Source of the DNA: Epidermidibacterium keratini
Lineage (GTDB): Bacteria > Actinomycetota > Actinomycetes > Mycobacteriales > Antricoccaceae
DNA length: 64,000 bases
Assembly: GCF_009834025.1 (NCBI RefSeq)
Contig: NZ_CP047156.1
Coordinates: 1,240,001 to 1,304,000 of the forward strand
Direction of reading: 5' to 3'
Under the pieces are notes generated by a model that saw only the letters and a list, made by a program, of their open reading frames with translations, did no database searches and had not been told where the DNA came from. Made by a program: the position numbers and the translations under genes. Shown here one piece after another: positions 30,367 to 57,790 of this stretch (the stretch's first letter is position 1; each line of letters opens with the position of its first letter).

Positions 30367-30783
30367 CTACGGGGCGACTTTGCGCAGCAGCCGCAGCAGC
30401 TCGGCGCGTTCGTCGGCATCGAGTACGCCGTAGAACTCGCGCGCGACCTCGCGGCGTACTGCCCCAACCTCGGCCAGCAGGGCGTGGCCGGCATCGGTCA
30501 TCTCGATGACGACGGAGCGGCGGTCGTCGGGGTTGGGCGAACGGGTGGCCAGGCCCTTTTCCACGAGGTGGTCGACGACCTCGGTCGCCGAGCGGGGCGC
30601 GATGCGCATGCGCTCGGCGAGATCGGCGATGCGCGGCCGCCCGCCGAGGCGTTCGATGGTGCGCAGCGCGCGCACCTGGTGCATCGCGATGCCGTGCGGG
30701 CCGAGCTGCTCGGCCGAGGCGCGGCGTACGGCGCGCGCCACGGCGGTAAGCGTGTCGTCGATCTCGTCGAACGTGCTGGCCAC
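30367..30783 (-). CDS. MarR-family repressor
   Basis: The 138-residue winged-helix protein has PRIADLAERMRIAPRSATEVVDHLVEKGLATRSPNPDDRRSVVIEMTDAG, which contains the recognition helix and wing of MarR proteins (residues about 50-100). It is divergent from an ABC exporter with a 21-bp imperfect palindrome between them, the typical layout of a drug-responsive repressor controlling itself and an efflux pump. Confidence 0.9.
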   Translation of the reverse strand: MASTFDEIDDTLTAVARAVRRASAEQLGPHGIAMHQVRALRTIERLGGRPRIADLAERMRIAPRSATEVVDHLVEKGLATRSPNPDDRRSVVIEMTDAGHALLAEVGAVRREVAREFYGVLDADERAELLRLLRKVAP

Positions 30784-30829: not shown

Positions 30830-30907
30830 CTCCTCATGCTTCATGACTTCCCCGAGGGCGCACCACAGTGCGGCTGGTCGGGGTCTCTCTCTGGAAGGAG
30901 CCGCCCT

Positions 30908-32659
30908 ATGCAGGACTCCTCGACTCACGCCGGACGCCGTGGGCACGGCGGACGCGGCCCAGGTCGCATCGACCCGGAGGACCGAGCTCAGCTCGCCGAG
31001 TCCCCGGTCGACCCGCGCCGCGTGCTGGCGCTGTTTAGCCCGCATCGTCTCGCGATCGCGTTCGTGGTCGCACTCATCGTGACCTCCTCCGTCATCTCGC
31101 TGGCCCAGCCGTTCCTGGTGCGCGAGATCATCGACGTTGCGCTCCCCCAAGGCGACACGAGTCTGCTGATCTGGGCCGTCGCCGCCATGATCGGTATCGC
31201 CGTCGCGACCGCCGTACTCGGCGTTGTCCAGACCTGGCAGTCAACCAAGGTCGGTCAGGCGGTCATGCACCGGCTGCGCACCCAGGCCTTCTCACACGTG
31301 CAAGACCAGTCGATGGCGTTCTTCACCCGGGTGCGTACCGGTGAGGTGCAGTCGCGGTTGACCAACGACATCGGCGGCATGCAAAACGTCGTCACCACCA
31401 CCGCGACCTCGATCGCCTCCAACGTCACCACGGTCGTCGGTACGGCGGTCGCCATGCTCGCGCTGAGCTGGCGACTGTCGCTGCTCTCACTCATCGTGAT
31501 CCCGCCGGCCATCTGGGTCAGCCGCCGCGTCGCGCTGATGCGCCGCGACAAGACCACTGAGCTGCAACGGAGGATGGCCGACCTGCAGTCGCAGATCGAC
31601 GAGCGGCTTTCGGTCAACGGCGCGCTGCTCATCAAGACGCTCGGCGCCGGCCGCCGCTCCAGCGACCAGTTCGAGGGCGCCTCCTCCGACGTGGCTGACC
31701 TCGAGGTGAAGTCACAGCTCGCCGGCCGGTGGCGGATGAGCACGATGACGATCGTCTTCTCGGTCATTCCCGCGCTGATCTACCTCGCCGCGGGCTTCCC
31801 GGCGACCTCCGGCGGAATGACGATCGGGACGCTCGTCGCGTTCAGTGCCCTGCAGGCCACGATCTTCCGGCCCATCCTTGGCCTGCTCAGTGTCGGCGTG
31901 CAGTGGGTGTCCTCGATGGCGCTCTTCAGCCGCATCTTCGGCTACCTCGACCTGCCCGTCGAGGTCACCGCCCCGAGCGATCCAGCCCGCTTCGAGAAGT
32001 CCGAGGTGCGCGGTGACGTCGTACTCGACGACATCAGCTTCCGCTACCCGAAGGCCGACCGCGACGCGCTGTCGTCGATCAATGTGCAGGTCCCGGCCGG
32101 TACGTCGCTGGCCGTGGTCGGCGAGACCGGCTCCGGCAAGACCACCCTCGGCGGGCTGGTCGCGCGGCTGGCCGACCCGACCTCCGGCGCGGTCCGCATT
32201 GACGGGGTCGACGTACGCGACATTGCCCCGGAGGATCTCGCCGCAGTCGTCGGCGTCGTCAGCCAGGAGACCTACCTGATCCACGGCACGATCCGCGAGA
32301 ATCTGCTGCTGGCCAAGCCCGACGCGAGCGACATCGAGCTGTGGCGAGCGCTGGCCGCCGCGCAGATCGACGAGCTGGTCGCGGGCTTGCCCGAGCAGTT
32401 GGAGACGAAGGTCGGCTCGCGCGGGCACCGCTTCTCCGGCGGTGAGAAGCAGCGGATCGCGGTCGCCCGCACCCTGCTGCGCGACCCGCGCGTGCTGGTG
32501 CTCGACGAACCCAACAATTCGATGGGTTGTTCGTTCCGGACACCTCGATTCTACCGTCGTGGCAGGGCAACGTCACGCCCTGATGCTCGACGTCGGCTCC
32601 TTGGGAGACGGTATGGCGTGCCGTGTCGCACCGCGCCGGTCGGGAGGGGTGGTCGCTGA
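30908..32659 (+). pseudogene. ABC exporter (permease-ATPase), 3'-truncated by island insertion
   Basis: The start at 30908 follows GGAAGGAG (30893-30900). Residues 1-534 are a normal ABC-B/multidrug-type half exporter: six membrane helices, Walker A GETGSGKTT, Q-loop SQETYLIHG, and signature FSGGEKQRIAVAR. At the Walker B (VLVLDE, ending 32509) homology stops. The next codons read Pro-Asn-Asn-Ser-Met and then 40-odd basic residues unlike any ABC protein. The D-loop, H-loop His and C-terminus are missing, so ATP hydrolysis should fail. The divergent MarR protein would have lost its pump. Confidence 0.88.
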
Positions 32660-34467
32660 TGGCTACACCGCTTCTGGGGGCCGAAGGGCTGCACTTGGAG
32701 TACCCGACGCGGGTGGTCTTCGACTCGCTCTCGGTCGGGATCGAGGAGGGCGACCGGATCGGGATCGTCGGTCGCAACGGTGACGGCAAGTCGAGCCTGC
32801 TGGGGATGCTCTCGGGGCAGATCGAGCCGCAGGCGGGTCGGGTGACCCGGCGCGGCGGCGTGCGGTTCGGCGTGCTCGGTCAGAGTGACGACCTCGATCC
32901 GGAGGCCACGGTCGGGTACTCGATCGCCGGCGACGCGCCGGAGCATGAGTGGGCCAGCGATGCCCGCATCCGCGATGTGATCGGCGGGCTGGTCTCGGAT
33001 ATCTCCTGGGATGCGGTGATCGGCCGACTCAGCGGAGGGCAACGGCGGCGCGTGGCCCTCGCCGCCTTGTTGGTGGGTGACTACGAGCTCATCGCGCTAG
33101 ATGAGCCTACGAACCATCTTGATGTGGAGGGTATCGCTTGGCTGGCTGAGCACATGAAGCGACGCTGGCCCAAGAACAGCGGCGGACTGCTGGTCATCAC
33201 GCACGATCGCTGGTTCCTCGATGAGGTCTGCACCGAGACGTGGGAGGTGCACGACGGCACGGTCGAGCCGTTCGAGGGCGGCTACGCCGCCTACGTGCTC
33301 CAGCGGGTCGAGCGAGATCGGATGGCCGCTGCGGCCGAGAGCAAGCGGCAGAACCTGATGCGCAAGGAGCTGGCGTGGCTGCGGCGAGGCGCTCCGGCGC
33401 GCACGTCGAAGCCGAAGTTCCGGATCGACGCGGCCAACGAGCTGATCGCTGACGTGCCGCCGGTGCGCAACCCCATCGAGTTGCAGCGGGTCGCTGTCGC
33501 ACGTTTGGGCAAGCAGGTCGTGGACCTGGAAGACGCGAGCGTGAGCTTCGGGGACCGGACGATCCTCGATGACGTGACCTGGCGGATCGCCCCTGGTGAG
33601 CGCACCGGCATCTTGGGCGCGAACGGTGCGGGCAAGTCGACGCTGCTCGGACTGATCTGCGGCACCCTGGAGCCGACCGAGGGACGGGTCAAGCGGGGTA
33701 AGACGGTGCAGGTCGGCATCCTCGATCAGCAGTTCTCCCAGCTCGCCGATATCGGCGGTGACCGGGTGCGCGAGGTCCTGGCCCGCACCAAGACCACGTT
33801 CCAGATCGACGGGAAAGACCTCACCCCGGCGCAGCTGCTGGAACGGCTCGGCTTCGCCCGCGAACACCTCTCGGCACGCGTCGATGACCTCTCCGGCGGG
33901 CAGAAGCGGCGGCTGCAGCTGCTGATGCTGCTGCTCAGTGAGCCGAACTTGCTGCTACTAGACGAGCCTACGAACGACGTTGATGCGGACATGCTCGCCG
34001 CGTTGGAAGACCTACTGGACTCCTGGCCGGGCACGCTGATCGTGGTCTCGCACGACCGCTACCTGCTGGAGCGGGTCACGGACCAGCAGTACGCCATCTT
34101 GGACGACGGGCTGCGGCATGTGCCGGGCGGGGTGGATGAGTACCTGCGGCTGCGAGCCGCGCAGGAGCAGCAGGCCGTGACCCCGTCGCCGATGAGCGCC
34201 CAGGCCGCCGAACAGAAACCATCGTCGCCTTCGTCTTCGGAGTTGTCGGGTGCGGAGCGCCGGGCGGTGCAGAAGGAGATCGGCGCGATCGAACGCCGGC
34301 TGGAGAAGCTGTCGGGAAGCATCGACCGCATCCATCAGCGTCTCGCCGACCACGATCAGAGCGACTACGGGGGCCTGCAAGGCCATACCGATGAGCTGCG
34401 CGAGGCGGAGGGCGAGGTCGCCGAGCTCGAAGAGCGGTGGCTGGAGCTGTCCGAGTCGATCAGCTGA
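32659..34467 (+). CDS. ABC-F family ATPase, Uup-like
   Basis: The 602-residue soluble protein has two ABC domains: Walker A GRNGDGKSS with signature LSGGQRRRVALA and LDEPTNHLD, then GANGAGKST with LSGGQKRRLQLL and LDEPTNDVD. They are joined by an ABC-F linker (RMAAAAESKRQNLMRKELAWLRRG). A C-terminal coiled coil (about 520-602, EIGAIERRLEKLSGSIDRI) is like the DNA/ribosome-binding tail of Uup. ABC-F proteins act on ribosomes, and some give antibiotic resistance. The tail and short linker favour Uup-type housekeeping over resistance, but carriage on an island leaves both open. GGGAGGGG precedes the ATG. Confidence 0.88.
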   Translation: MATPLLGAEGLHLEYPTRVVFDSLSVGIEEGDRIGIVGRNGDGKSSLLGMLSGQIEPQAGRVTRRGGVRFGVLGQSDDLDPEATVGYSIAGDAPEHEWASDARIRDVIGGLVSDISWDAVIGRLSGGQRRRVALAALLVGDYELIALDEPTNHLDVEGIAWLAEHMKRRWPKNSGGLLVITHDRWFLDEVCTETWEVHDGTVEPFEGGYAAYVLQRVERDRMAAAAESKRQNLMRKELAWLRRGAPARTSKPKFRIDAANELIADVPPVRNPIELQRVAVARLGKQVVDLEDASVSFGDRTILDDVTWRIAPGERTGILGANGAGKSTLLGLICGTLEPTEGRVKRGKTVQVGILDQQFSQLADIGGDRVREVLARTKTTFQIDGKDLTPAQLLERLGFAREHLSARVDDLSGGQKRRLQLLMLLLSEPNLLLLDEPTNDVDADMLAALEDLLDSWPGTLIVVSHDRYLLERVTDQQYAILDDGLRHVPGGVDEYLRLRAAQEQQAVTPSPMSAQAAEQKPSSPSSSELSGAERRAVQKEIGAIERRLEKLSGSIDRIHQRLADHDQSDYGGLQGHTDELREAEGEVAELEERWLELSESIS

Positions 34468-35169: not shown

Positions 35170-35378
35170 GATGCCTCCAAGCACGCAACTGTGATGAGGC
35201 AGTACGTGTGGAGTGTCCCGAAGGACGGCCCCAAAAGGGGGCCTACATGGTGAGGGGCGAATCTGCCTCTGTGCTTCTCACTCTACGCCGCGCGTACGAC
35301 GCGCGGTAGCCCCCGCGGGCCGTGCTCGGTCGCTGGCGGTGCACCTTGCCGGTGACCGTCTGGGAAGGGACACAGATC

Positions 35379-36392
35379 ATGGCGAAGCTGGCAGAGCAGG
35401 CGAAGGGTGAGCGGCAGGCACGGATGATGCTGTCGATGATCGCCGAGCCTGACGACGCGGCCACCGGCCGCATCCTGCACCGACTCGGCGGGGTCGAGAC
35501 GCTCCGGCTGCTCGAAGACGACCAGGCCGCGGTGCCGGAGATGAACCGCGCCGATGCGATCGCCTGGCTCAACCGCGTCGCCCCGCGCATTGAGGGCGAC
35601 ATCTCGGCACGAGTTGCGGAGGCGGAACGAGCCGGTATGTCCACGCTCATCCCGACCGATACGGACTGGCCGCACGCGCTCAACGACCTCGGCTCCCGCG
35701 CCCCGTACCTGCTGTGGACACGCGGGGCGACCTCCTTCCTCGCAGGCGCTCTCACGGATCGGGTCACGATGACCGGCTCCCGGGCGGCCAGCGAGTACGG
35801 CGTCCAGGTCGCCGGGCATCTCGCCGGAGACCTGGCCCAACAGGAGCGCACCATCGTCGCCGGCGGCGCCTACGGCATCGACGCCGCAGCACACCGGTCG
35901 GCACTCGCCGACGGTGGAGGCACGATCGCGGTACTGGCCGGCGGCATTGACCGTCCCTACCCGCGCGGGAACTCGGACCTGCTGGCCCGGATCGGCGATC
36001 TGGGGGTGCTGGCCAGCGAGGCTCCTCCGGGGGCGACGCCGACCCGGTGGCGGTTCATGGCCCGCGCCCGTCTGCTGGGTGCGCTCTCGGGCGCGACGGT
36101 GATCCCAGAGGCAGGCTTCCGGTCGGGATCGCTGCTGGTGGCAACAGAAGCCCACCGGCATAGCCGCGCCGTCGGAGCGGTCCCCGGCCCGGTCACGTCG
36201 GCGGCGAGTGCGGGTCCGCATGAGCTCATCAAGCGCGGACGCGCCGAGATCATCACCGATACCGCGGACGTGACCGCCCTGCTGGATTCGCTGGATGATC
36301 CAGGCCGGCTGCTGAACCGCCAGGCAGCCTATCGGCCGTTCGAGACTCAGGAGCCCGCTTCTTTCGGGTTGCCGACAATTCGTCAGTTCTAG
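35379..36392 (+). CDS. dprA: DprA/Smf-family DNA-processing protein
   Basis: The 337-residue protein contains the DprA Rossmann-like core: VTMTGSRAASEYG, IVAGGAYGIDAAAHRSAL (about 165-182), VLAGGIDRPYPRGN and GFRSGSLLVATEAHRHSRAVGAVPG. It binds single-stranded DNA and loads RecA on incoming strands. GGGAAGGGA precedes the ATG. No C-terminal winged helix is obvious. On an island it may protect or process transferred single strands; a second chromosomal dprA would be expected elsewhere. Confidence 0.88.
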   Translation: MAKLAEQAKGERQARMMLSMIAEPDDAATGRILHRLGGVETLRLLEDDQAAVPEMNRADAIAWLNRVAPRIEGDISARVAEAERAGMSTLIPTDTDWPHALNDLGSRAPYLLWTRGATSFLAGALTDRVTMTGSRAASEYGVQVAGHLAGDLAQQERTIVAGGAYGIDAAAHRSALADGGGTIAVLAGGIDRPYPRGNSDLLARIGDLGVLASEAPPGATPTRWRFMARARLLGALSGATVIPEAGFRSGSLLVATEAHRHSRAVGAVPGPVTSAASAGPHELIKRGRAEIITDTADVTALLDSLDDPGRLLNRQAAYRPFETQEPASFGLPTIRQF

Positions 36393-36505: not shown

Positions 36506-38647
36506 CTAAATCGTTGCCACTACTTCTCCGAGAAGCGAACGTTCAAAACTAGTAAGCGGTATTCTCTCTGTGCCACGCAACGCCTGAATTGCTTCAAGCA
36601 TCTCATCGAGACTTCGGGAGTTCCCAAGTCCGCGTACCAACTGTCGCGATATCTCAAGAGGCAGGCCGTACTCCTCCAACGTAGTGAGATGCGGAGCGGA
36701 GAACATGCTCTCAACTCGGGCCGCGAAACCGTCGAATGACCCAGATTCCAATCCGCGCTCCTCAAGAATCTCGCTCACGACTACATCGAGCGCCCTCAAC
36801 GCAGTGGGAAAATTGTGGTCTAGCCAGTACCGCACGAAATCGAACGCCGCCTCAATCTTCTCGTCAACGCTGGAAGATTGATCATGTTCGTTCTCAACAA
36901 ACCCCGCGATAATGTCCTTCATTCGGCCTTCAACGAGAGACGCTTGATTGACTTGATAAGCGAGTTGCTGCGCGCTGTATGCGCCGTGCCCACGATGATA
37001 CGAAGGAGGAATGTAGTTCCATATCAGTTCGCAGACTGCCCGAAGCTCCGCCCATTTTGGGTAGGAAGTAGACCACTGCAGCGGCTGAAGCCGTGACGTG
37101 GGCAGCGTGCGAATATGCTTCGCAAGCTCGGTTGCAGCTTCCGGTTCCACACCCTTTATCGAGCGCAGAACCTTCAGGCTAAGGCCCGACTCTTCTAATA
37201 CAGGTGACACCCGCTCCCTGGTCTCGTCGCTCCAATCTCCTTCGTCGATCTGCACGAGTAGTGAACTCGGGGCAATATCGCTTTGGCTGACTCCAGGAAT
37301 GTCAATCTCGGGAAACTCTCTCGTCGGGGCATCATGAAAGAGCACGATCTCACCCACGAAATGCTTAAACATTCTGCCAACACGGCCACGTATGTTGGCG
37401 AATGTGAAGTAGTTGTATGCCCTATTAGCAACTTTGCGATCAAGAATTATGATGCGTTTTGCTCGGGTATTGACTCCTTCGATCAGAGAGTTCGTGCAGA
37501 CAAGCGTGTCAAGATCACCGTCTTCGAATCCCTGTACCATCTTTTGTGCGAGCCAACGAGGAAGGCGTCCATGATGCACACCCACTCCACGTCGCAGCGC
37601 TCTTGAGACAATCCAATCCGGATGGTAGTTCTCTTCGATCCACTCGGCTACTTCCGGTAAGCCCCGACTAACGGTCGCGCCACTTGACCGCTGTTCGATC
37701 AGCGCTTCCAAAACCTTTCGCGTCTTTGCTGGGCTTTGGCAATATACCAATGTGGGGTCACAGGACGAACCAATCAGTTCGGCTACTATCGCGAGGCGTT
37801 CTTCGTCGTTTGAAGCCTTGAGTTTTCTGGTGTCAGCAGCAACGGTGGAGAAATCAGTTCTGATGAAAGAAGCACGAAGGTTAGAAGGGAGGACTGATGC
37901 GAGGCCCTCCACGACTGGACCCGCAAAGTAAAACTGGGCGCCAGTCTTAGCGAGTCGCAAGAATGCCTGATTCAACATTGATGCGCGTTGTTCTAGAGTG
38001 CCTTCGCTCTCCTCCGCAAGCTTGTAGAACTCGTCAATGAAGAAGAAATCAACCGCAGGGAGTTGAGGAACCGCGAGCAACCGCTCCTGTGTCATGACCA
38101 GGATGTTGCGTTCACTCAACTCCTGGTTCGGGTGGGTGACAATCTTGTACTCACGAAATTGGGAGAGGCGTCGGCGGGTCTCATCCAGAAGTGCGATTGT
38201 AGGAACCACGAGTACCAGGTTCTTGTACCTGCCAGTTTGAACTAGTGCATCTATAACCACACTCTTTCCAAAGCTGGTTGGCGCCGAGAGAATTACATTC
38301 TCTCCTTCAACCAGGCGGTGAAATACTTGAGACTGAATGCGGTGGAAGACGGTCTCAGAGGCTGGGTTGGGTCGGTTCATTTCCATGATGACCGCATCCC
38401 GAAGAGAGTCATGGTCTGCACCTTGAACGGCATAGGGGTACAGTCCGTGCAGCATTGCTAAACTTCGAAGGATTTCGCCCTCGGGTCCCGTCCTACTGAT
38501 TTTCTCAAGCGCTCGAATTACAAGATCCGTGCTTTCAGATCCGATGCCATTAATTGAAGTGAAAGCAGCAATATCGGATAGGATCTCAAACGCGTCGTCA
38601 ACCTCACCGCGTAGCAGAGATGTCAGTTCTGCGTGAGAGCCTGCCAT
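36506..38647 (-). CDS. hamB: Hachiman helicase HamB
   Basis: The 713-residue SF2 helicase has motif I SAPTSFGKS (121-129), motif II IDEF (204-207), a motif III-like YFAGP, and C-terminal lobe motifs VCTNSLIEGVN and NIRGRVGRM. Divergent DEAD-box form plus the gene directly before it (DUF1837/HamA) identify the helicase of the Hachiman anti-phage system, which translocates on DNA and releases the HamA nuclease when it meets damaged or phage DNA. It overlaps hamA by 25 bp. Codon use is much less GC-biased than in its neighbours, a mark of recent transfer. Confidence 0.88.
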   Translation of the reverse strand: MAGSHAELTSLLRGEVDDAFEILSDIAAFTSINGIGSESTDLVIRALEKISRTGPEGEILRSLAMLHGLYPYAVQGADHDSLRDAVIMEMNRPNPASETVFHRIQSQVFHRLVEGENVILSAPTSFGKSVVIDALVQTGRYKNLVLVVPTIALLDETRRRLSQFREYKIVTHPNQELSERNILVMTQERLLAVPQLPAVDFFFIDEFYKLAEESEGTLEQRASMLNQAFLRLAKTGAQFYFAGPVVEGLASVLPSNLRASFIRTDFSTVAADTRKLKASNDEERLAIVAELIGSSCDPTLVYCQSPAKTRKVLEALIEQRSSGATVSRGLPEVAEWIEENYHPDWIVSRALRRGVGVHHGRLPRWLAQKMVQGFEDGDLDTLVCTNSLIEGVNTRAKRIIILDRKVANRAYNYFTFANIRGRVGRMFKHFVGEIVLFHDAPTREFPEIDIPGVSQSDIAPSSLLVQIDEGDWSDETRERVSPVLEESGLSLKVLRSIKGVEPEAATELAKHIRTLPTSRLQPLQWSTSYPKWAELRAVCELIWNYIPPSYHRGHGAYSAQQLAYQVNQASLVEGRMKDIIAGFVENEHDQSSSVDEKIEAAFDFVRYWLDHNFPTALRALDVVVSEILEERGLESGSFDGFAARVESMFSAPHLTTLEEYGLPLEISRQLVRGLGNSRSLDEMLEAIQALRGTERIPLTSFERSLLGEVVATI

Positions 38648-39507
38648 GCTTTCAACCTCCCATCGAAAGCGGACGTGAGTTCGGCCTTGGTGTCCATTGG
38701 GAAGAAAAACACGTGTGCCCTGATCTGACGAGGAAGTGTCCAGTTCTCGTACCTGTCTCGCAGACTCTTCCAGTTGTTCATGACCTCGGTTCGTAGATCA
38801 GCGAGGTACTCCTCAGTGCTCTCCTTGTGCCTGCCCGCAGCTTCGCTGTCATAGGAAATGAAGATAGGAACTACGACACTCTTGAATGTTCTGTCCAACG
38901 AGGTCTTTCGAGACAACAGCGCGGTGATCTTGTCCCGGTGAGGATAGTCGTCAGGAATCTTGTCGGTTATGGCGGCAAATTCGTACCGCAGGTAGTCGCG
39001 ACTGAGATGTAGCTTCAGCTCATCATATATTGCGCTGGCTGCACCGTAGCTGTCTTTATAGAGCTTCGATTCGCCAAGCCAGAGTTCCAGTTCCCCGGAG
39101 GCTCCTGTATCGACAATGTGGGCACAGTCGAAACCTTTGACAGTGTCGTTGGCAGCGTCTTTGAAGTAGATCCGGGATATAAGTCTCGAACTTCCATAGA
39201 ACTTGCGCAGAATCATGTGAAGGAGGAGTTCACCAATTTCTCCTCTTCTCTCAAAGTCAATGGTGGCGTAGACACGACTGAGAGCCTTCCCGAGCAGTGC
39301 TGTGCCAGTAGCGTGGTTGTACCCTTCCAGTTCTTGCGTAGGAAGAATCCAATCTGCTGCCCAATTGATCAGATCGACGCTGAGGTCATCGGAGCGCCAT
39401 GTTCCATCTTCGAAACCGGCGCAAAACGTTGCAGATGGTAAGAGACTGTCGGTGTGATCTACGACGAGTTCAAGGATCGTCTCAGGAACTGGGAGCTTCG
39501 TAGCCAT
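38623..39507 (-). CDS. hamA: Hachiman nuclease HamA (DUF1837)
   Basis: The 294-residue protein has the DUF1837 pattern: RRGEIGELLLHMILRKFYG (about 88-106), ISRIYFKDAANDTVKGFDCAH with Asp127, and ELWLGESKLYKD with Glu146/Lys148. These make a (D/E)-x-K nuclease site. In Hachiman, HamA is an effector nuclease held inactive by HamB and released for indiscriminate DNA degradation. It is first in the operon, and its stop lies inside the hamB start region. Confidence 0.87.
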   Translation of the reverse strand: MATKLPVPETILELVVDHTDSLLPSATFCAGFEDGTWRSDDLSVDLINWAADWILPTQELEGYNHATGTALLGKALSRVYATIDFERRGEIGELLLHMILRKFYGSSRLISRIYFKDAANDTVKGFDCAHIVDTGASGELELWLGESKLYKDSYGAASAIYDELKLHLSRDYLRYEFAAITDKIPDDYPHRDKITALLSRKTSLDRTFKSVVVPIFISYDSEAAGRHKESTEEYLADLRTEVMNNWKSLRDRYENWTLPRQIRAHVFFFPMDTKAELTSAFDGRLKAWQALTQN

Positions 39508-39669: not shown

Positions 39670-42600
39670 TCACAGGGATCGTTCTTGCCTCCTGACGCTG
39701 ACAGAACGTTGGGCGACAGAGTCTCCGGTCTGAGGAGTATCCGCAGCTACCCGACGTATGGCTGCCGCTGCGCGGGCGCGGTCAATCTTCTGCGCCGCGC
39801 TCTGGGGTGCCGGGCCGAGTGGGGTGTCGTCGCTGATTTGATAGCGGTCGCGGTAGGCCGCGATGGTCCGGGCGTCACGTCGCCAGCGTGCCTGTTCGCG
39901 GTCACCGGACGGCGGGTCACCGAGCGGCTGGGTCCACGGTTCGCCGGTCTGGCGGGCGGTGTCGAGGATCGCGTCGGCGCGGGTCTCGATCAGCTCTCGT
40001 CGCTCGGTCAAGGCCTGGAGCATGTCTGCCGCGATCGGGCCCTGCACGTGCGGGATGAGGCCGGCGATCAGCCGCGGGGTCTTCCTCATGCGCCCCGACC
40101 CGGCCGGCTGGGCGGTGGCGCGTGCGAGACGGTAATGCATGACCTTGGCGATGTCCTCGGCGTCATCGAAGCCGCGAGCAGCCACCAGGCGCGGGAAGAG
40201 CGTATCGACGTCGTGGTGGTTGGCCTCGGCGCGGCGCAGCTCGGCAGTCAGCGCTCCGAACGCGACCGAGCCCAGCGTGGCGTCGGCCTGTTCTTCGGTC
40301 AGGCCCGAGTCGCGGATGAGGGCGGCCCAGCGGTCGTGTTGGGCGGCTGCGGCGATGGTTTCGTACTCGGCGGCGAGCTGGGCGATCGAGCCCCACTGGT
40401 CCTGCTCGGCGGTGATCGTCTCGTGCGCGGAGAGCTCGGCTCCCGAGTGCTGCAGCACTCCGTAGAGGACCGAGCGGCCGGTGGCTTCCTCGTTGTCCGA
40501 GGGGTGCGGTGCGGCGTGGTCGTCGGGGCGGTCGAGGACGACGTAGGCGTGGTTGGACTCGCGGCCGCGGGTCATCGCGACGTAGACGTTCTCACGGGTC
40601 GAGGACGGCTCGACCAGCACATGCGCGGTATCGACGGTGATGCCCTGCGCCCTATGCGCAGTGACGGCGTATCCCAGATCGACGTGCTCGGCCACGTAGT
40701 CGGCCGGCAGCACGATCGACCCGAACCTGCGGCCGGGCTTGCGGATCGTGATCGACCCGTCATCGCGCACGTCGGTGACCTGCCACCGCGCGCCGTTGCG
40801 CACCCATCCCCGGCCCGTGCCGGTGCGCAGGCGTCGATCGTTGCGGCGGGTGATGACCGTGTCCCCGACGCCAGCGGACGTGCCCTCGGCCAGTGCGACC
40901 TCCCGGCCGGGTTTGATCTTCCCGGCCAGGATGAGATCGGCGCGGGCCCTCGCGTTGAGCGCGGTCACGTCTTCACGGGTCTCGGCGATCAGCACCGAGG
41001 CCCGTCTGGCGTCGCGGTCGGCACGCCAAGCGGTGTAGGCGGCATCGATCATGTCCTCGGCATCGCCGTCGCTGATGCGGCCGTGACCTGCGTAGGTGTC
41101 GATCACGCGGGTGCGGCCGTGGCGCAGATCGAGGGAGGCGGTCTTCTCCCATTCGTGGACGAAGCGGTGCACGTCCACGAGCTCGGGGGCGTCGTCGCGG
41201 TCGGCCACGAGCATCCCGAAGCTCCCGCCCGCATCGACGGATTGGAGCTGTCCGTAGTCGCCGACCAGCAGCACTTTCGCGCCCGTCTCGGCTGCGAGGC
41301 CGGTGATGCGCTCCAGCGACAGAGTGCCCGCGAGGCTGGCTTCGTCGATGATGACGAGCTGCCCGGCCTGGAACGTCTCCCCGCGGAGAAGGTGGTTCTG
41401 CCACCACTTCGCCGTGTTCTCGGTCGCGATCCCGAGATCATCGCCGAGGACCTGCGCCGCCACGGCAGAGGGAGCCAGCCCGACCACGGTCCCGTGGCCG
41501 TGCTGCTTCTCCCATGCCCGCCGCAATGCCGACATGGCGGTGGTCTTCCCGGCACCTGCCGGGCCGACCAGCACGTCGAGAACACGGCCGGAGACCGCGA
41601 TCTGGGTGAGCGCTGCGGCCTGGTCGTCGCCGAGCAGGCGCCCTTCCTGGTCGGGCTTCGCGGTGATCTTCTCGACCGTCTCGACCTCGACGGTCGGGCC
41701 GGTCAGGGTGCGGGAGCGTTCCAGGAGACGGTCTTCGGCCTCCAGCAGCACCGTGGAGGAGAACACGGTCGAGTGGCGGGGCCGGAACACGCTGGTGCCG
41801 TCTGGGCGGCGGAACGCGGCCGGGCTGGTGGCGAGCTCGGGCGGCGTCAGCCGCAGTGAGGCCTGCTCGGCGGCATCGGCGATCATCCCCACGATCGCCT
41901 CCCGGTCGCTGGCGGTCGCGAATCGCCATGCCATCGACTGCCGGCTCGCTTCGGAGTGCAGGTTCCATCGCCGCCAGGTCGAGCGTTTCTCGCCGACGAC
42001 CTCGACCACCGCCTGCCCGAGCTCGGAGATCACCTCCAATGGCACATCATCTGCCCGCAACGGCCGCACCTGCTGCGCCTCGGCGAGAAGGCTGCCGGCC
42101 CAGCCGGTCGCGTCCTCACCCAGCAGTTGGCCGGCCCGGTCGCGCCAGCCAGCGGTCAGGTCGGCCAGGGAATGGACCTGCTTCTCGGGCCGGGTGGCGA
42201 GAGTGGCCTGGGCGCGCAGGCGCACGATCGTCCGTGCGGAGGGCCGGCGGCCGTGCTCGGCGGTGTAGGCGGCGATGAGCCGGTCGGTTTCGGCGTCGAT
42301 ATCGCGGGCGCGGGAGGAGAACTCCTCGACCAGCTCCTCGCTGACCCCGGTGATCTCCCACGCCGGGTTGCGGTCCCGGCCCCGATCCCGTGCCTCCCAC
42401 TCCACGCCGAGCGTGCCGGTGAGGCGGTCGGCCAGGACCGCGTTGTAATGCTCCGAGAGCGCGACGACCGCCGCGTGCATCGGGCGGCCATCCAGTGACC
42501 GCCATCGTCCGTCCAACGCGGTCTGGACCTTGTTGGAGATCACGACGTGAGTGTGCAGCTGCGGGTCCCCGGAGCGGCTGTCGTAGTGATCGAAGGCCGT

Positions 42601-43227
42601 GGCGATCAGTCCGGTCACGTCGACCTGGGCGACCGCGCCGTCGGCGGCGGTGTAGCCGGTGCGGGTCGCGGCGACCTCGCGCTCCATGAAGTTCACGACC
42701 TCGGCGATCGCCTCGTGATGCGCCTGGGCGATCAGGGCCTGCGTGCCGGCGTCGGCCACGCCCCACAGCACGGAGACGGACTTCGGCACCGAGAACGTGT
42801 AGTCGAACCCCGCGACCGCACGGCGGTTGCCCCGCTCGATCTCCTCGGCCTCGATCTGGCTGATCTGCTCGGCACGCTCACCCATCCCCAGGCCGGGGTC
42901 GAGGTCGGCGGCGCGCTTCTCGATCCGGTCGGCGACCGAGACGTACCGTGGGAAGGCCCGCCCGAGCGGGTCGCCGCTGACGGGATCGCGGCCCATCCCG
43001 ATCAGCAACTGCAACTGCGACTCCGAGACCTCATCGCCGAGAGCGATCCGCCCGTCTCCGAGGCCGCGAAGGGCCGACCCGATCCAAGTGCCCGGTGGTG
43101 TTCCCTCTTCCGTGTAATACCTGGTCAACGGGGTCGAGAGGGAGCGGTCGCCGTCGGCGGCGGCGATCGTGCGCATCAGGTACTTGTACCCGTCGCCCGC
43201 GCTCATCACCCGCATCGAGACCGTCAT
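39670..43227 (-). CDS. MobF-family conjugative relaxase-helicase (TraA/TrwC type)
   Basis: The 1185-residue protein has a TrwC relaxase domain (1-320), with catalytic tyrosines YY at 37-38 and the three metal histidines H214, H225 and H227 (DPQLHTHVVI). An SF1 helicase follows, with Walker A GPAGAGKTT near residue 560, IIDEASLAG, GDYGQLQSVD and YVAMTRGR. A C-terminal tail is mostly helical. It nicks the transfer origin and unwinds the transferred strand, so the island can be mobilised or is self-transmissible. No oriT could be assigned. Confidence 0.93.
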   Translation of the reverse strand: MTVSMRVMSAGDGYKYLMRTIAAADGDRSLSTPLTRYYTEEGTPPGTWIGSALRGLGDGRIALGDEVSESQLQLLIGMGRDPVSGDPLGRAFPRYVSVADRIEKRAADLDPGLGMGERAEQISQIEAEEIERGNRRAVAGFDYTFSVPKSVSVLWGVADAGTQALIAQAHHEAIAEVVNFMEREVAATRTGYTAADGAVAQVDVTGLIATAFDHYDSRSGDPQLHTHVVISNKVQTALDGRWRSLDGRPMHAAVVALSEHYNAVLADRLTGTLGVEWEARDRGRDRNPAWEITGVSEELVEEFSSRARDIDAETDRLIAAYTAEHGRRPSARTIVRLRAQATLATRPEKQVHSLADLTAGWRDRAGQLLGEDATGWAGSLLAEAQQVRPLRADDVPLEVISELGQAVVEVVGEKRSTWRRWNLHSEASRQSMAWRFATASDREAIVGMIADAAEQASLRLTPPELATSPAAFRRPDGTSVFRPRHSTVFSSTVLLEAEDRLLERSRTLTGPTVEVETVEKITAKPDQEGRLLGDDQAAALTQIAVSGRVLDVLVGPAGAGKTTAMSALRRAWEKQHGHGTVVGLAPSAVAAQVLGDDLGIATENTAKWWQNHLLRGETFQAGQLVIIDEASLAGTLSLERITGLAAETGAKVLLVGDYGQLQSVDAGGSFGMLVADRDDAPELVDVHRFVHEWEKTASLDLRHGRTRVIDTYAGHGRISDGDAEDMIDAAYTAWRADRDARRASVLIAETREDVTALNARARADLILAGKIKPGREVALAEGTSAGVGDTVITRRNDRRLRTGTGRGWVRNGARWQVTDVRDDGSITIRKPGRRFGSIVLPADYVAEHVDLGYAVTAHRAQGITVDTAHVLVEPSSTRENVYVAMTRGRESNHAYVVLDRPDDHAAPHPSDNEEATGRSVLYGVLQHSGAELSAHETITAEQDQWGSIAQLAAEYETIAAAAQHDRWAALIRDSGLTEEQADATLGSVAFGALTAELRRAEANHHDVDTLFPRLVAARGFDDAEDIAKVMHYRLARATAQPAGSGRMRKTPRLIAGLIPHVQGPIAADMLQALTERRELIETRADAILDTARQTGEPWTQPLGDPPSGDREQARWRRDARTIAAYRDRYQISDDTPLGPAPQSAAQKIDRARAAAAIRRVAADTPQTGDSVAQRSVSVRRQERSL

Positions 43228-51313: not shown

Positions 51314-53551
51314 TTACTTCTGGCGCTCCAGGACGGAACGCGTGCTGGCTTCGGGTGTGAGGTCGATGCGCCGCAGCAGCTGGGCGTTGAGCGCGACAAC
51401 CACGGTGGAGGCTGACATCAGGATCGCGCCGATCGACATTGGCAGGACGAATCCCACCGGTGCCAGGATACCGGCCGCCAACGGCACCGAAAGAAGGTTG
51501 TAGCCGGCGGCCCACCACAGGTTCTGCTTCATCTTGCCGTATGCGCGTCGCGACAGCTGGATGATCGAGAGCACGCTGCGTGGGTCGGAACTGGCCAGGA
51601 TCACCCCGGCCGAGGCGATGGCGACATCGGTGCCCGCGCCGATCGCGATGCCGACATCGGCCTGCGCCAGAGCCGGGGCGTCGTTGACGCCGTCGCCGAC
51701 CATCGCGACCCTCTTGCCCTCTTCCTGCAGCTGGGAGACCTTCGCGGACTTGTCCTCCGGGCGCACGCCGGCGAAGACGCGGTCGATGCCGAGCTCCCGT
51801 CCGACCTCGTTCGCGACCGCCTCGGCATCGCCGGTGATCATGACGACCTCGACACCGAGGGCGTGGAGGGCGTCGACGGCGTCGCGGGATTCTGGCCGGA
51901 CCTCGTCGGCGAGCCTCAGCCCGCCGACCACCTGGCCGCCGCGGAGAACGTGCAGAATGATCGCGCCCTCGGAGCGCCATGCCTCGGCCGTGCCGACCTC
52001 GTGCTGACCGGTCTCCTCGAGCAGCCGGGGCCCGCCGACGCGGACCTTCTGGCCGGAGACGGTCGCGGTGACGCCGACGGCGGGCGAGGATGAGAAGCCG
52101 CTGGCCTGCTGGAGGGCAAGGCCCTTGTCCTTGGCGGCGGTGACGATGGCCTTGGCGAGCGGGTGCTCGCTGTCGGCCTCGGCCGAGGCAGCGAGGGCGA
52201 GGACCTGGTCGGCGTCGAGTTCGCCGGTCGGCTCGACGCCGGTGACGGTGGGCTCGCCCTTGGTCAGCGTGCCGGTCTTGTCGAACAGCACCGCGTCGAC
52301 CTGCCGCATGGACTCCAGCGCCAGGCGGTCCTTCACTAGGACGCCTCCGCGGGCGGCTCGCTCGGTGGCGATGGAGACGACCAGCGGGATCGCCAGGCCG
52401 AGGGCGTGGGGGCAGGCGATGACGAGCACGGTGATGGTGCGCACGACGGCCTCGTCGGGCATGCCGATGAGCGTCCAGACGACCGCAGTGACCAGCGCCG
52501 CGCCAAGAGCGAACCAGAACAGCCAGGCCGCGGCCTTGTCGGCGATCCGCTGGGCGCGGGAGGATGAGTTCTGCGCCTCGGCGACGAGCCGGTTGATGCC
52601 GGCCAGGGCGGTGTCGTCACCGGTGGCGGTAATCTCCACCCGCAGGCCGGAGTCGGTGGCGACGGTGCCGGCGGTGACGGTCTGGCCCTCGCCGCGAGAG
52701 ACCGGGCGGGACTCGCCGGTGATCATGGACTCGTCCATGTCGGCGCGGCCGTCGACGATGGTTCCGTCGGCCGGGACGCTGCCGCCGGGGCGCACGATGA
52801 CCACGTCGCCCACGTCGAGGTCGGCTGGGGCCACCTTGACGACGTTCTCGCCCTCGACGCGCTCGGCCTCGTCTGGCAGCAGTGCCGCCAACGAGTCGAG
52901 CGCCGAGGTGGTCTGGGCCAGGGAGCGCATCTCGATCCAATGGCCCAGCAGCATGATGACGATCAGCAGCGCCAGTTCCCACCAGAATTCGAGCTCGTGA
53001 TGGACGAGCCCGAGCGTGGCGGCCCAGGAGGCGAAGAAGGCCACCGTGATCGCCAGAGCGATGAGCAGCATCATCCCGGGCTTGCGGGACTTCAACTCGC
53101 TGACGGCACCGGTGAGGAAGGGCCTGCCGCCCCAGACGTACATGACGGTGCCCAGTGCCGCGGCGACCCAGCCCGCCCAGCCGGGGACCTCGTAGCCCAG
53201 CAGCATGGCGAACATCGGTGAGAGGGCAACCGCGGGGATGGCGATGACGAGGTTGATCCAAAACAGCCGGCGGAACTGGCCAACGTGGTCCCCGTGCCCG
53301 CCATGGCCGCTGTGATCTCCGTGCCCACCGTGCTGGGCATGCTCATCGTGGCCGCCGTGCTCGTCGAGGCCCGTGTGGCCTGAGTGCTGCCCGTGGTCCA
53401 TGGCGTGGCCCTGATGCCCGGTGTGCTGACCCTCGCGCGTGCCGTGCGCATCCGCCGAGGCGTGCGCGGACACAGACCCGTGGTGATGCTCGCCGTGGGC
53501 GGGTGTATCGGTTTCGTGGCCGTGGTGCTGGTGTGAGTTCGGGTCCGTCAT
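51314..53551 (-). CDS. copB: CopB-type heavy-metal P1B-ATPase with His-rich N-terminus
   Basis: The 745-residue pump has residues 1-90 extremely His/Gly/Asp-rich (repeats of GHGDH and HGG) instead of an HMA domain. The membrane metal site is CPH (380-382), the mark of P1B-3/CopB ATPases. TGES lies at 278-281, the phosphorylated Asp424 in DKTGT, and [10 protein letters not shown] later. It exports copper (Cu2+ or Cu+) across the membrane. It lies between the YdhK lipoprotein gene and csoR on one strand. Confidence 0.93.
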   Translation of the reverse strand: MTDPNSHQHHGHETDTPAHGEHHHGSVSAHASADAHGTREGQHTGHQGHAMDHGQHSGHTGLDEHGGHDEHAQHGGHGDHSGHGGHGDHVGQFRRLFWINLVIAIPAVALSPMFAMLLGYEVPGWAGWVAAALGTVMYVWGGRPFLTGAVSELKSRKPGMMLLIALAITVAFFASWAATLGLVHHELEFWWELALLIVIMLLGHWIEMRSLAQTTSALDSLAALLPDEAERVEGENVVKVAPADLDVGDVVIVRPGGSVPADGTIVDGRADMDESMITGESRPVSRGEGQTVTAGTVATDSGLRVEITATGDDTALAGINRLVAEAQNSSSRAQRIADKAAAWLFWFALGAALVTAVVWTLIGMPDEAVVRTITVLVIACPHALGLAIPLVVSIATERAARGGVLVKDRLALESMRQVDAVLFDKTGTLTKGEPTVTGVEPTGELDADQVLALAASAEADSEHPLAKAIVTAAKDKGLALQQASGFSSSPAVGVTATVSGQKVRVGGPRLLEETGQHEVGTAEAWRSEGAIILHVLRGGQVVGGLRLADEVRPESRDAVDALHALGVEVVMITGDAEAVANEVGRELGIDRVFAGVRPEDKSAKVSQLQEEGKRVAMVGDGVNDAPALAQADVGIAIGAGTDVAIASAGVILASSDPRSVLSIIQLSRRAYGKMKQNLWWAAGYNLLSVPLAAGILAPVGFVLPMSIGAILMSASTVVVALNAQLLRRIDLTPEASTRSVLERQK

Positions 53552-53621
53552 GATTCCTCTCCTCCGTCATCGAGCCAGGCCGATTGCCGCTCACCCGGTG
53601 GCCGGGCAAGCGAACGTCGGC

Positions 53622-54221
53622 TCAGGACGCTGGTTGGATCTCGCTCTCGACGACCCACTTGTGGTTCGTCATCTTCATGCCGTCCGTCTCGTAGTCGACC
53701 ATGTAGACCGTCTCATCGGTGGACGAAGCGATGGTGGCCTTTACGCCTTCCATGCCTTCCATGTGCTCGGCGAGCAGAGTCACCTCTGTGCCGTCGGCCA
53801 GAAGCTCGTCGCCGGCATCCTCAATTTCTTCCTGCACGACCCACTTGTGATCAGTGACGGGGTCGCCGCCACCTGCGGGCGTGTAGTTCACGGAGTACGT
53901 GTACGTGTCGAATGCGCCGGAAATCGTTGCTGTAGCCCCTTCCATGCCTTCCATGTGGTCGGCCGTGAGCTGCACCTCGGTACCGACAGGGTAGGTGGGC
54001 TCACTGGCTTCGGCGATACCCTCGGGTGCCGGTCCGCCGTCCATCGGGTGCTCCATCTCCTCATCACCGCTTTCTGCGTTGTTGCCGCCGTGGCCCTGAT
54101 GCTCCTCAGTAGCCGAAGGGTCGGTCTGCTGGTCGTCGTCTGCTCCGCTGGCGCAACCGGCGAGCACGAGCGCCACTCCGAGCGCTCCCGCTGCCAGTCC
54201 TGTTCGCAGTCTCCTCTGCAT
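53622..54221 (-). CDS. YdhK-type lipoprotein with two DUF1541 repeats
   Basis: ATG 54221 follows AAAGGAA. The signal peptide ends in a LAGC lipobox. After a Glu/His/Met-rich linker (EEMEHPMDGG), two repeats each contain LxADHMEGMEGATATI or LLAEHMEGMEGVKATI and end with NHKWVV or DHKWVV. The His-Met-Glu-Gly-Met clusters are plausible copper ligands. This family often accompanies copper ATPases, and a CsoR-type palindrome lies 32 bp upstream. Confidence 0.85.
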   Translation of the reverse strand: MQRRLRTGLAAGALGVALVLAGCASGADDDQQTDPSATEEHQGHGGNNAESGDEEMEHPMDGGPAPEGIAEASEPTYPVGTEVQLTADHMEGMEGATATISGAFDTYTYSVNYTPAGGGDPVTDHKWVVQEEIEDAGDELLADGTEVTLLAEHMEGMEGVKATIASSTDETVYMVDYETDGMKMTNHKWVVESEIQPAS

Positions 54222-54252
54222 GTCATTTCCTTTCATCAATATGCCTACCATA

Positions 54253-54267
54253 TACCCCTAGGGGGTA
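54253..54267. promoter_or_regulatory. CsoR-type operator candidate (ydhK-copB operon)
   Basis: TACCCCTAGGGGGTA is a near-perfect palindrome 32 bp upstream of the ydhK start codon. Confidence 0.75.
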
Positions 54268-54318
54268 CTAGTCAAGGCTTGTGTGTTGTGTCGGTATGGA
54301 TCAATCGGAAGCCCCTTC

Positions 54319-54648
54319 TCAGAGGGTCTGCTCGTGTTGGATGGGCAATGCGGCGATGAGGGGATGGTCGAAGCCCGTCGGTCCGATCTTCGCGGCTCCT
54401 CCGGGAGAACCCAACTCGTCGAAGAACTCGACGTTGGCCTTGTAGTAGTCAGACCATTCGTCGGGCAGGTCGTCTTCGTAGTAGATGGCCTCGACGGGGC
54501 AGACCGGTTCGCAGGCTCCGCAGTCGACGCATTCGTCGGGGTGGATGTAGAGCGAGCGTTCGCCCTCGTAGATGCAGTCGACAGGACATTCGTCGATGCA
54601 GGCGCGGTCCTTGACGTCCACGCAGGGAAGCGCGATCACGTAGGTCAT
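54319..54648 (-). CDS. fdxA: seven-iron ferredoxin
   Basis: The 109-residue protein has the 7Fe pattern: Cys9, Cys17, Cys21, Cys25 and Cys40, Cys43, Cys46, Cys50 for one 3Fe-4S and one 4Fe-4S cluster, with the helical C-terminal extension of the FdxA family. It is the last gene of the long copZ-copA run, and its ATG overlaps the MFS stop by 4 bp. An electron carrier next to a ferredoxin-reductase-like protein suggests an electron-transfer pair inside the copper operon. Confidence 0.92.
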
Positions 54649-55922
54649 GGCTGCTCCTCTCGGTCGGGTGCGGATCGGCGGTGAGAGCCGGTGGGAGGCT
54701 CGGGGAAGTCGTCAGTCTCTGCCGGGCCTGCGGCCGGGTGCGGGATGCGCAGGCGCAGGACGGTGGCGACGAGGCTGAGGGCGATGATGATCGCACCGAG
54801 GATCGTCATCGTCCCCGACAGGGTGAGCACCGGCACGAGCAATCCGGCGACGATGGTGGGCACGCCGAATGCCAGGTAGGCAACTGTGTAGATCACAGCC
54901 ATCACGGCGGCGCGTTCCGACGATGCCGTGTGGGGCATGAGTGTGCGCAGTACCCCGAGGAACGCTGTGCCGAACCCGGAACCGACGATCGCGACCGAGG
55001 CGACATAGGCTGAGTAGGAACCGAGTGCGAGGGCGCCGATGCTCACTGCGGTGCCGAACGCCAGGGCACTGGTCGCATACAGGCTGATGGTGCGGGCGGA
55101 ACGCCGCTGTAGGACGGACGAGGCGGTGACTCCGGAGATCGCCAGTGCGAAGATGACGATCCCAGCTTGGGTGTGCGTGGAGCCCCCAAGCTCACTGCCG
55201 ACGAGGTCGGCTCCGAGCGCGAGGAAAAGCCCGTTGGTCGCCCACCCGGCGATGATCACGGGCACTCCGGCGGTGAACATGCGGCGCAGGTGCGGTGGCA
55301 CGGTGAACCGCGGACGGAGGTCGCCACGTCGTATCCGGGTCTTCGGGGCCAGTTCCGGTGTGCTCCACACGACCGTTGCCACGATGAGGAAGGCAAGCAC
55401 GAGCGACCCGAAGACGGCAGTTGTCGGTTCGGAGGTGAGATCGAGGAGAAGCGCAGCACCGAGAGCCCCGGCCCCAAGGCCAATCATCGGGCCGATCGTG
55501 TTCCACAGGGCTGCGATGTTCCGATGCGACGGGGACTCGAAGTCGATCATCATCGCCGACAGCGCCGGGATCAGCAGACCCGCTGCGAGCCCTTGCAAGG
55601 CTCGGGCGACCAGGAGCGCCGCGAGGCTACCGGCGAACCAGAACATGGCCACGCTCAGCGCCAGCGCCAAAGAACCGGCGGCCACGACCGGACGTCGGCC
55701 GACGTGGTCGGAGAGTGGTCCGAGGTAGAGCAGCGCGGCCAGGAGGGTGAAGGTGTAGACCGCGAACACGAGTGTGGTGGCGACGGGGATGAGTCCGAGC
55801 CGTTCGGCGATCTGGGGGTAGAACAAGGACGGCGCGCTGGCAGCGGCCATCATGAGAATGGTCGCTGCCAGCGAGAGCACGAAGCCCCGCCGTGGGATCT
55901 GCCTAATACAGTCTCCCGCCAT
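54645..55922 (-). CDS. MFS transporter
   Basis: The 425-residue, twelve-helix carrier has the loop 2-3 motif [13 protein letters not shown] and a helix 4 segment [22 protein letters not shown], placing it with drug:H+ antiporter-like efflux proteins. Its start is 3 bp from the reductase stop. The substrate is unknown; it may export a metallophore or a metal complex given its operon. Confidence 0.83.
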
Positions 55923-55925
55923 CGC

Positions 55926-57071: not shown

Positions 57072-57118
57072 AGAAGAACTCCTGAACTGCTGGTCGTGAT
57101 CGAACTGATGCGCCGGCG

Positions 57119-57472
57119 TCAGGAGCGCACGAGGCGGGCGATGGCCTCGGACGCCTCGCCGAGCCTCTGCTCGCTCACTGGTCCGCCGGCGAGTGCGGCG
57201 TCGAGGACACAATGCTTGAGGTGATCGTCGAGCAGGCCGAGGGCGACATTTTCGAGTGCCCTGGTGACTGCGGAGATCTGGGTGAGGATGTCGATGCAGT
57301 AGCGGTCCTCGTCGACCATCCGATCGATGCCGCGGATTTGGCCTTCGAGGCGCCGCAGACGATTGCGGTACTTCGTCTTATCGCTGATGTATCCGTGGAC
57401 GGACGCGTCGCCGTCGCCTCCTGCGGGGCAGGTGTCGAGGTGGGTTTCGGTGGTGGGAGTCGTAGTGGTCAT
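57119..57472 (-). CDS. csoR: CsoR-type copper-sensing repressor (second copy)
   Basis: The 117-residue paralogue of the first CsoR has RRLEGQIRGIDRMVDEDRYCIDILTQISAVTRAL and LDDHLKHCVLDAAL, with the same Cys-His-Cys ligands. An N-terminal Thr-rich tail carries one further Cys. It lies in the copZ-copA run and so is probably autoregulated through the copZ promoter palindromes. Confidence 0.9.
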   Translation of the reverse strand: MTTTTPTTETHLDTCPAGGDGDASVHGYISDKTKYRNRLRRLEGQIRGIDRMVDEDRYCIDILTQISAVTRALENVALGLLDDHLKHCVLDAALAGGPVSEQRLGEASEAIARLVRS

Positions 57473-57494
57473 GTCGGTTCGCTCCGATCAGGTG

Positions 57495-57527
57495 GCGGGG
57501 TGCCGCAGCGGTGCCGCGGCACCCCGC
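57495..57527 (-). terminator. hairpin between YHS and csoR genes
   Basis: GCGGGGTGCCG and CGGCACCCCGC form a perfect 11-bp stem with an 11-nt loop, 12 bp after the YHS stop. It may reduce read-through from copZ-copA into csoR and the redox genes. Confidence 0.7.
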
Positions 57528-57538
57528 ACGCTGGTGGA

Positions 57539-57790
57539 TTACGCCATGTTGGCGGCGTACTTGGCCGGGTCCGAATCGAACGCAGGCCCACAACCAGCGC
57601 AGCAGAAGTAGTAGCGCTCATCCTCGAAGTCGCGGTAGAGGCCGGCGGCCTCGGCGGTCTTCTTGCTGACCGGGGTGCCGACCATGACCGGGCAGGTGGT
57701 CATGTCATCGGCGCCCCCGCCAAGAAGGTTCTCGCGTCCACCGTTCTCCACGGCCGGGTTGGTCTCGTTCGTGCTGCAGCAGCTGCTCAT
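57539..57790 (-). CDS. small Cys-rich YHS-domain protein
   Basis: The 83-residue protein (start 57790, MSSCCSTNETN) has a YHS metal-binding domain, TCPVMVGTPVSKKTAE then YRDFEDERYYFCCAGCGPAFDSDP. The additional CC pairs at the N-terminus and in FCCAGC give several thiol ligands. It follows copA and is likely a cytosolic copper/metal-binding accessory protein. Confidence 0.8.
   Translation of the reverse strand: MSSCCSTNETNPAVENGGRENLLGGGADDMTTCPVMVGTPVSKKTAEAAGLYRDFEDERYYFCCAGCGPAFDSDPAKYAANMA

Follow-up and report, generated by a model that had tools for sequence, protein, structure and literature searches.

The stretch of DNA analysed here, called the window throughout, covers 64,000 nucleotides of the complete 4,018,808-bp genome of Epidermidibacterium keratini (G000:C1:1240001-1304000), and it contains the left part of an inserted element that by its gene content is an integrative and conjugative element (ICE) and that interrupts the gene of an ATP-binding cassette (ABC) exporter. 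A MarR-family regulator gene of the host (30367..30783, minus strand; Pfam MarR 3.3e-14) lies divergent from the exporter, of which the 5' part (30836..32508, plus strand) encodes the transmembrane domain and the nucleotide-binding domain (NBD) up to the Walker B motif. A large serine integrase gene lies at the far end of the element, and a gene for an ABC-F ATPase begins directly behind the cut in the exporter.

The interrupted exporter and the ends of the element

The exporter is cut within the Glu codon of its Walker B motif. The open reading frame at 30836-32659 reads as an ABC exporter as far as VLVLDE, after which it runs on as PNNSMGCSFRTPRF... until a stop at 32657-32659, whereas all seven intact homologues that were read carry ATSALDN(D/E/T)TER... 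at the same point. A genome search located the missing C-terminus at 1325220-1325456 of the same genome (71% identical to the query), 52.7 kb from the 5' half, beyond the window and adjoining the large serine integrase; this 3' fragment (G000:C1:1325220-1325468) runs in frame to its own stop at 1325468 and has no 5' part, and the exporter sequence proper extends from the right-hand crossover on (G000:C1:1325232-1325468). The original prediction, made from the letters of the window, had read the same frame in the same way up to a stop at 32659 and had proposed searching past position 64,000 for the exporter 3' end and an integrase, both of which are found there; its further proposal, a comparison with island-free relatives, is answered by the 7/7 homologues that are intact at the insertion point.

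Comparison of the left (attL) and right (attR) attachment sites reveals that attL reads ...CTCGAC-GA-ACCCAACAATT and attR ...GCTGCTGGGT-GA-GGCGACCTCGG, and that the dinucleotide GA is the sole sequence shared at the junction. The crossover therefore lies at 32507..32508 in attL and at G000:C1:1325232-1325233 in attR; an island boundary inside the exporter Walker B motif, as originally proposed, is borne out, with the exact crossover at 32507-32508 and not at 32509. The first 22 bp of the element after GA (32509..32530) form the right arm of attP, the attachment site of the element itself, and the two arms are the reverse complement of each other about GA at 14/22 positions, compared with a mean of 5.4 in shuffled sequences and with none of 5000 shuffles scoring as high. 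The imperfect inverted repeat that had been taken for a recombinase site does belong to one, but is better described as one half of attP. The palindrome about GA recurs in five element types of the first integrase group (14-17/22 positions) and in that of G356, the only second-group element tested (15/22, p 5e-05); a CC core once considered for the second integrase group was dropped, as the palindrome of G356 centres on GA. The crossover was resolved from both ends in our own element and in G791, G004, G763, G797, G591 (on the right from the element side only) and G356, while the remaining second-group loci were read at the integrase end only. In G591 one contig (C8; L079/L093) terminates precisely at the GA core of attP; the assembly may have broken there, or integrated and excised forms may have been mixed in the population.

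The element measures 52,727 bp, of which the window contains the left 31.5 kb. The same element is present in G791, a complete genome of another family (one contig, 3,861,567 bp), with 99.996% identity over 52,727 bp; the identity runs exactly from GA to GA, and in global alignment the 600 bp past each end are only 57-59% alike. There it interrupts another ABC gene, an ABC-F, again in the Walker B motif. G799, which is closely related to G791 but lacks the element at this position, provides the empty site: its left flank is 97.2% identical to that of G791 over 1,302 bp, through GA, and its right flank 94.3% identical over the first 545 bp from GA. The presence of near-identical copies in two families implies a recent transfer, although the near-identity says nothing of the mechanism.

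Walker B motifs as targets of the integrase family

The integrase gene beside attR (G000:C1:1323652-1325187, minus strand) encodes Resolvase and Recombinase domains (Pfam PF00239, 4.1e-18, and PF07508, 2.1e-14), and the Pfam scan gives these two only, with no DUF4368. The protein matches the integrase family phrog_95 (3.4e-84) and, weakly, the solved integrase 9iu2 (2.5e-08). The hallmarks of large serine integrases are present as well, namely a 2-bp crossover, an attP that differs from the bacterial site attB, and a near-palindromic attP beside the integrase gene. Relatives were sought in samples of the order (397 genomes, E<=1e-45), the class (394, 1e-70) and the phylum (396, 1e-80), and additionally in 17 genomes of one family and 60 of another (1e-90), all of these samples overlapping. 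Fifteen integrase loci, our own included, show at least 45% identity; no further close integrase appeared in the phylum sample (396 genomes, E<=1e-80) or in the family of G591 (17 genomes). No integrase relative was detected in viral contigs by a search reaching close relatives only, and the matches listed among plasmid and phage records are all below 40% identity, so that the element was not classified as a phage. At the DNA level, plasmids gave only partial matches (71-85%).

Of the 15 integrases at 45% identity or above, 14 are located at a Walker B motif encoded by a gene for an ABC ATPase. In 13/15 an NBD fragment starting at Walker B directly adjoins the integrase, and at the 14th locus (G591) the contig ends at the core while the opposite end of the element is an ABC-F gene cut at Walker B. 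In contrast, none of 24 integrases at 36% identity or below, from the order and class searches, has such an NBD fragment beside it, the flank at the integrase start being only 76 bp long for one of them and 859 bp for another. About nine different ABC genes, counted by eye, are hit across the 14 loci, and integrases that are indistinguishable use different ones: those of L053 and L094 are 100% identical over the aligned part and target an exporter and an ABC-F gene, respectively, and those of L055, L097 and L098, again 100% identical over the aligned part, target three different ATPases. The second group comprises seven integrases (93.7-100% identical in the pairs shown) in five different ABC genes, which were told apart by eye and by flank comparison, without formal clustering; by the definition given in PMC10083194, more than three target gene clusters per 90% integrase cluster, this group counts as multi-targeting.

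The exact 15-mer CTCGACGAGSCGACC occurs eight times in our own genome (once for the reversed control), and 7/8 copies encode Walker B motifs of ABC-type ATPases, including a UvrA-like protein and ABC-F proteins, in line with the original view that Walker B coding DNA offers an integrase many sites; G791 holds two copies, one of them in an ABC gene. Taken at the level of sequence, the targeting of Walker B motifs by this integrase family can be regarded as established, in that the target, the core dinucleotide, the palindromic attP, the element boundaries and the use of different target genes by identical integrases are all read directly. Nothing speaks for a junction that arose by faulty assembly or by random recombination and lies in Walker B by coincidence; this reading is practically refuted by the complete single contig of our own genome, by the same element with identical ends in a second single-contig genome, by the empty site in the relative of G791, by an attP palindromic about the core and by Walker B motifs at 14/15 close loci.

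Genome G797 carries two integrases, one of each group, beside two different ABC genes (C69/C5 and C53; L095, L103, L125, L142). Several distant integrases (L056-L060, L063, L065, L068-L072, L075, L078) adjoin, as judged by eye, sequences of ComEC, of a sigma-70 factor or of CpaF/TadA ATPases, some of the latter being cut near Walker A. The wider integrase family may be specialised in attB sites located in protein motifs.

The carried ABC-F gene and its possible role as a replacement

The ABC-F gene directly inside the left end of the element (32659..34467, plus strand; two Pfam ABC_tran stretches, with phylogeny as further evidence) is proposed here as a replacement copy. The broken exporter frame continues from the Glu codon for 50 codons into the element (32507..32659, plus strand), and the TGA stop of this tail overlaps the ATG start of the ABC-F gene as TGATG, an overlap already seen in the original prediction. 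Six first-group elements, namely our own and those of G791, G797, G763, G591 and G004, carry an ABC-F gene at this place, and in 6/6 the fused host frame is 49-50 codons long and the carried start lies at +2 of the stop, the overlaps being TGATG, TAATG or TAGTG with all three stop codons (TGA, TAA and TAG) in use. These six represent three to four sequence types (our own and G791 are near-identical, G797 is close to both in the ABC-F gene, at 98%, and G591 and G004 form another close pair), and in G797 and G591 the two element ends lie on different contigs.

What characterises a rescue element, a carried copy homologous to the broken target, is found here: over 432 columns the carried ABC-F shares 78% identity with the N part of the ABC-F that the element interrupts in G791, and the broken host gene is an ABC-F in 5/6 first-group elements, our own being the exception. 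The ABC-F broken in G004 is 54% identical to our own carried copy. In family f57, this ABC-F is matched at E<=1e-130 in 59/60 genomes, and 56/60 have one full-length copy with an open frame of at least 602 codons; in the three carriers of this family (G763, G791 and G797) the native ABC-F is broken and the carried copy intact. The only f57 genome without a match at this threshold, G786, has a second-group integrase at an ABC gene. In the phylogeny the carried ABC-F genes form one group (support 94/97), in which the ABC-F of G003 is included; the latter, 78% identical, was considered as a possible element copy and was taken as chromosomal, as no broken ABC gene lies within 1.5 kb of it.

We were also interested in the codons at the two Walker B sites of the carried gene. 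Both the first domain (33097..33123; CTA GAT GAG CCT ACG AAC CAT CTT GAT) and the second (33958..33984; CTA GAC GAG CCT ACG AAC GAC GTT GAT) are written unusually, the first being rich in A/T-ending codons. At 10/10 distinct Walker B sites, taken from five carried genes, there are 3-6 A/T-ending codons out of 11, compared with 0-2 at 56/56 sites of 28 intact native orthologues (28 of 56 intact orthologues, from the best 30 matches); the combined p of 7e-9 is overstated, since related genes were treated as independent. The gene-wide share of A/T-ending codons is 12-15% in carried genes and thus not lower in native ones (median 16%, range 7-20%). The 14-mer CTCGACGAGCCGAC is present at 0/10 carried sites, 16/31 control sites and 32/56 native sites. 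The ranks of single sites among sequence windows are modest, with 9/10 carried sites within the top 10% and one at 26%, whereas 12 control sites rank at 40-100%.

Taken as a whole, an ICE that uses a protein motif as its attB and carries a coupled replacement ABC-F is, in our judgement, probably the best explanation of the locus. The serine integrase would recombine attP with Walker B coding DNA (roughly CTCGAC-GA-GSCGAC), and because attB is Walker B DNA, any ABC gene with suitable codons would be a potential site. Since attB is a protein motif, the element enters in the same codon phase, and the broken host frame then reads 49-50 codons into the element and stops on the start of the carried ABC-F; this overlap would couple translation of the latter to the promoter and ribosomes of the host gene. 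On insertion into the usual target, the single-copy chromosomal ABC-F, the host would keep an ABC-F, and, more tentatively, the atypical codon choice in the two Walker B motifs of the carried copy may prevent self-insertion by making this copy resistant to its own integrase. While the targeting can be read from the sequences, the replacement is something that we infer. The stronger claim of a natural insert-and-replace strategy, with a universally conserved motif as attB, frame-guaranteed entry into many paralogues and an integrase-resistant replacement of the main, widely conserved target that is expressed by means of the promoter and ribosomes of the broken gene, is a tentative one to which we give a little less than an even chance. 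In our own genome the exporter would be lost and an extra ABC-F placed under the exporter promoter, which is probably controlled by the divergent MarR gene; it is plausible that the latter is left without a working pump, as had been suggested at the outset.

A number of observations weigh against this account. At the level of targeting, the integrase of G802 (G802:C13:544704-546140; L101), the sole one of the close set without an adjoining ABC gene, has no NBD within about 1.45 kb, and the elements are related, so that all counts concern non-independent events; excision, expression and transfer are predicted only. With respect to replacement, our own element has entered an exporter gene, in which there is nothing for an ABC-F to replace, and the second domain of our own native ABC-F is an intact exact match to the 15-mer CTCGACGAGSCGACC. 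The chromosomal ABC-F of G003 falls inside the carried clade, so the carried genes are no separate lineage. In G356, the sole second-group element sized (12.9 kb), a motif scan found no intact ABC gene; targeting therefore needs no replacement gene, which may be an addition of the first group. The NCBIfam model 'ribosomal protection-like ABC-F' is a near miss for the carried protein (355 against a cut-off of 380). As for recoding, mismatches of the carried sites to the 14-mer average 2.5, compared with 1.88 expected by random synonymous choice (Fisher p 0.43), control sites match it better than expected (0.61 against 1.42 mismatches), and synonymous divergence at the carried sites is raised significantly in 0/10 pairs (lowest p 0.069). 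Two ideas were given up on these results, namely that the carried sites avoid the attB 14-mer more than random codon choice would, and that Walker B is hypervariable in carried ABC-F genes; only the excess of A/T-ending codons stands.

Several of these points would suit an ABC-F that is ordinary adaptive cargo of an element that does target Walker B. ABC-F proteins are known ribosome-protection factors, and the gene could serve in this capacity without replacing anything; the near miss to the ribosomal protection-like model, the copper and defence genes that the element also brings, the insertion of our own element into an exporter and not an ABC-F, and the content of G356 can all be read in this sense. 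However, none of the resistance models among the best 25 of 201 NCBIfam models reaches its cut-off, and the Msr, Vga, Lsa, OptrA, Sal, CplR, CarA and producer models score far below theirs. The carried gene is moreover homologous to a chromosomal ABC-F that is single-copy in f57 and broken in all three carriers there, and a constant tail length with a stop/start overlap in 6/6 elements is unexpected of passive cargo. We therefore regard mere cargo as unlikely, though it is the strongest of the alternatives. Distinctly less probable is a reversible gene switch, in which excision would restore the exporter as phage switches do in comK-like genes. Such switches are known for other elements, and both exporter halves are open in sequence, with an empty site that would be exact; but in G791 the same element interrupts an unrelated ABC gene, and hence no particular gene need be regulated.

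Element content, related systems and significance

In the element as a whole, the ABC-F gene is followed in the window by a gene for a DprA-like protein (35322..36392, plus strand; PADLOC best hit ShosA) and, on the minus strand, by the Hachiman defence genes hamB (helicase, 36506..38647; PADLOC 3.3e-213) and hamA (38623..39507; Pfam HamA 2.7e-48, also PADLOC), the DprA/ShosA-like gene thus adjoining the HamA/HamB pair within 35322-39507. A MobF/TrwC relaxase-helicase (39670..43227; Pfam TrwC 2.7e-94; NCBIfam MobF above cut-off), a CueP copper-binding protein with a cation diffusion facilitator (45925..47784) and a copper and heavy-metal module (51314..60114) composed of two copper-type P-type ATPases, a DUF1541 protein, a major facilitator superfamily (MFS) transporter and a disulphide oxidoreductase are likewise on the minus strand, followed by an ArdC-N/M78 protein gene (62852..63988, plus strand). 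The part beyond the window, to G000:C1:1325233, encodes Prim-Pol, ParB-N, M23 peptidase, SCO6881-like, VirB4-like, MFS and VirD4/TraG proteins and the integrase; among the conjugation matches, TraG-D_C and T4SS-DNA_transf are above their cut-offs, and the VirB4-like and SCO6881-like proteins below. By its content of a relaxase, VirB4-type and VirD4-type proteins and an integrase, together with its defined ends, the element is classified as an ICE with a type IV secretion system (T4SS) and a MOBF relaxase. The original prediction counted everything downstream of the junction as mobile-element cargo; the ABC-F gene located there seems, however, to serve the strategy of the element and not to be mere cargo. 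A tRNA-Cys (GCA) gene lies within the element (49228-49301, minus strand), and the host DNA of the window includes a tRNA-Sec gene (8672-8764, plus strand).

Both multi-targeting serine recombinases and ICEs whose serine integrase directs them into conserved genes, which they disrupt, have been described before (PMC4701971, PMC10083194, PMC3218068, PMC5704250). Among actinobacterial ICEs (AICEs), T4SS-type elements with a MOBF relaxase were described by Ghinet et al. (2011; PMC3218068); these share the MobF relaxase, the VirB4-like and VirD4-like proteins and the chromosomal integration with our element, and some AICEs use serine recombinases that insert into protein genes, whereas the terms 'ABC transporter' and 'ATP-binding' are absent from the main text of that paper, and no replacement gene was noted there. 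The multi-targeting large serine recombinases of Durrant et al. (2022; PMC10083194) resemble ours in that one integrase uses several target genes with a 2-bp core. Their multi-targeting clade is largely DUF4368/TndX-like (DUF4368 in 63%), and the worked example has a TT core and T/A-enriched ends; the site described here is, by contrast, a GC-rich protein-coding motif common to a gene superfamily, and their main text contains none of the terms 'ABC transporter', 'transporter' and 'ATPase', the enriched target genes being listed in the supplement. Streptococcus serine-integrase ICEs in rumA, hsdM, traG and mutT (Ambroset et al., 2016; PMC4701971) also disrupt a conserved gene internally and leave very short repeats; there, a given integrase group keeps to one or a few named genes, no carried replacement was noted, and 'ABC transporter' is absent from the main text.

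In Cleave-and-Rescue and home-and-rescue elements, a needed gene is broken, and the element brings along a copy of it that is recoded so as to withstand the enzyme of the element. The synthetic versions (PMC7951863, PMC7968924) are engineered, nuclease-based and eukaryotic, whereas here the insertion itself breaks the gene and the recoding is weakly supported. Among the open-access papers searched, none was found that describes Walker B DNA as attB or a coupled carried replacement, although the supplement of PMC10083194 could hold ABC genes.

The comparison with G791 documents 52.7 kb that are nearly unchanged between bacterial families. Tyrosine integrases preferentially use tRNA genes (PMC3218068). 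These genes are conserved and exist in many copies, which offers a reason for the preference. The elements described here represent a serine-integrase solution akin to this, with the Walker B codons of ABC ATPases as the motif, and ABC ATPases make up a very large superfamily in bacteria. Closely related or identical integrases with several known sites additionally provide a natural set from which serine-integrase specificity may be learned. The proposed coupling predicts how an element could break an important gene and yet leave its host unharmed, and, if true, it would constitute a prokaryotic, recombinase-based counterpart of the engineered cleave-and-rescue elements.

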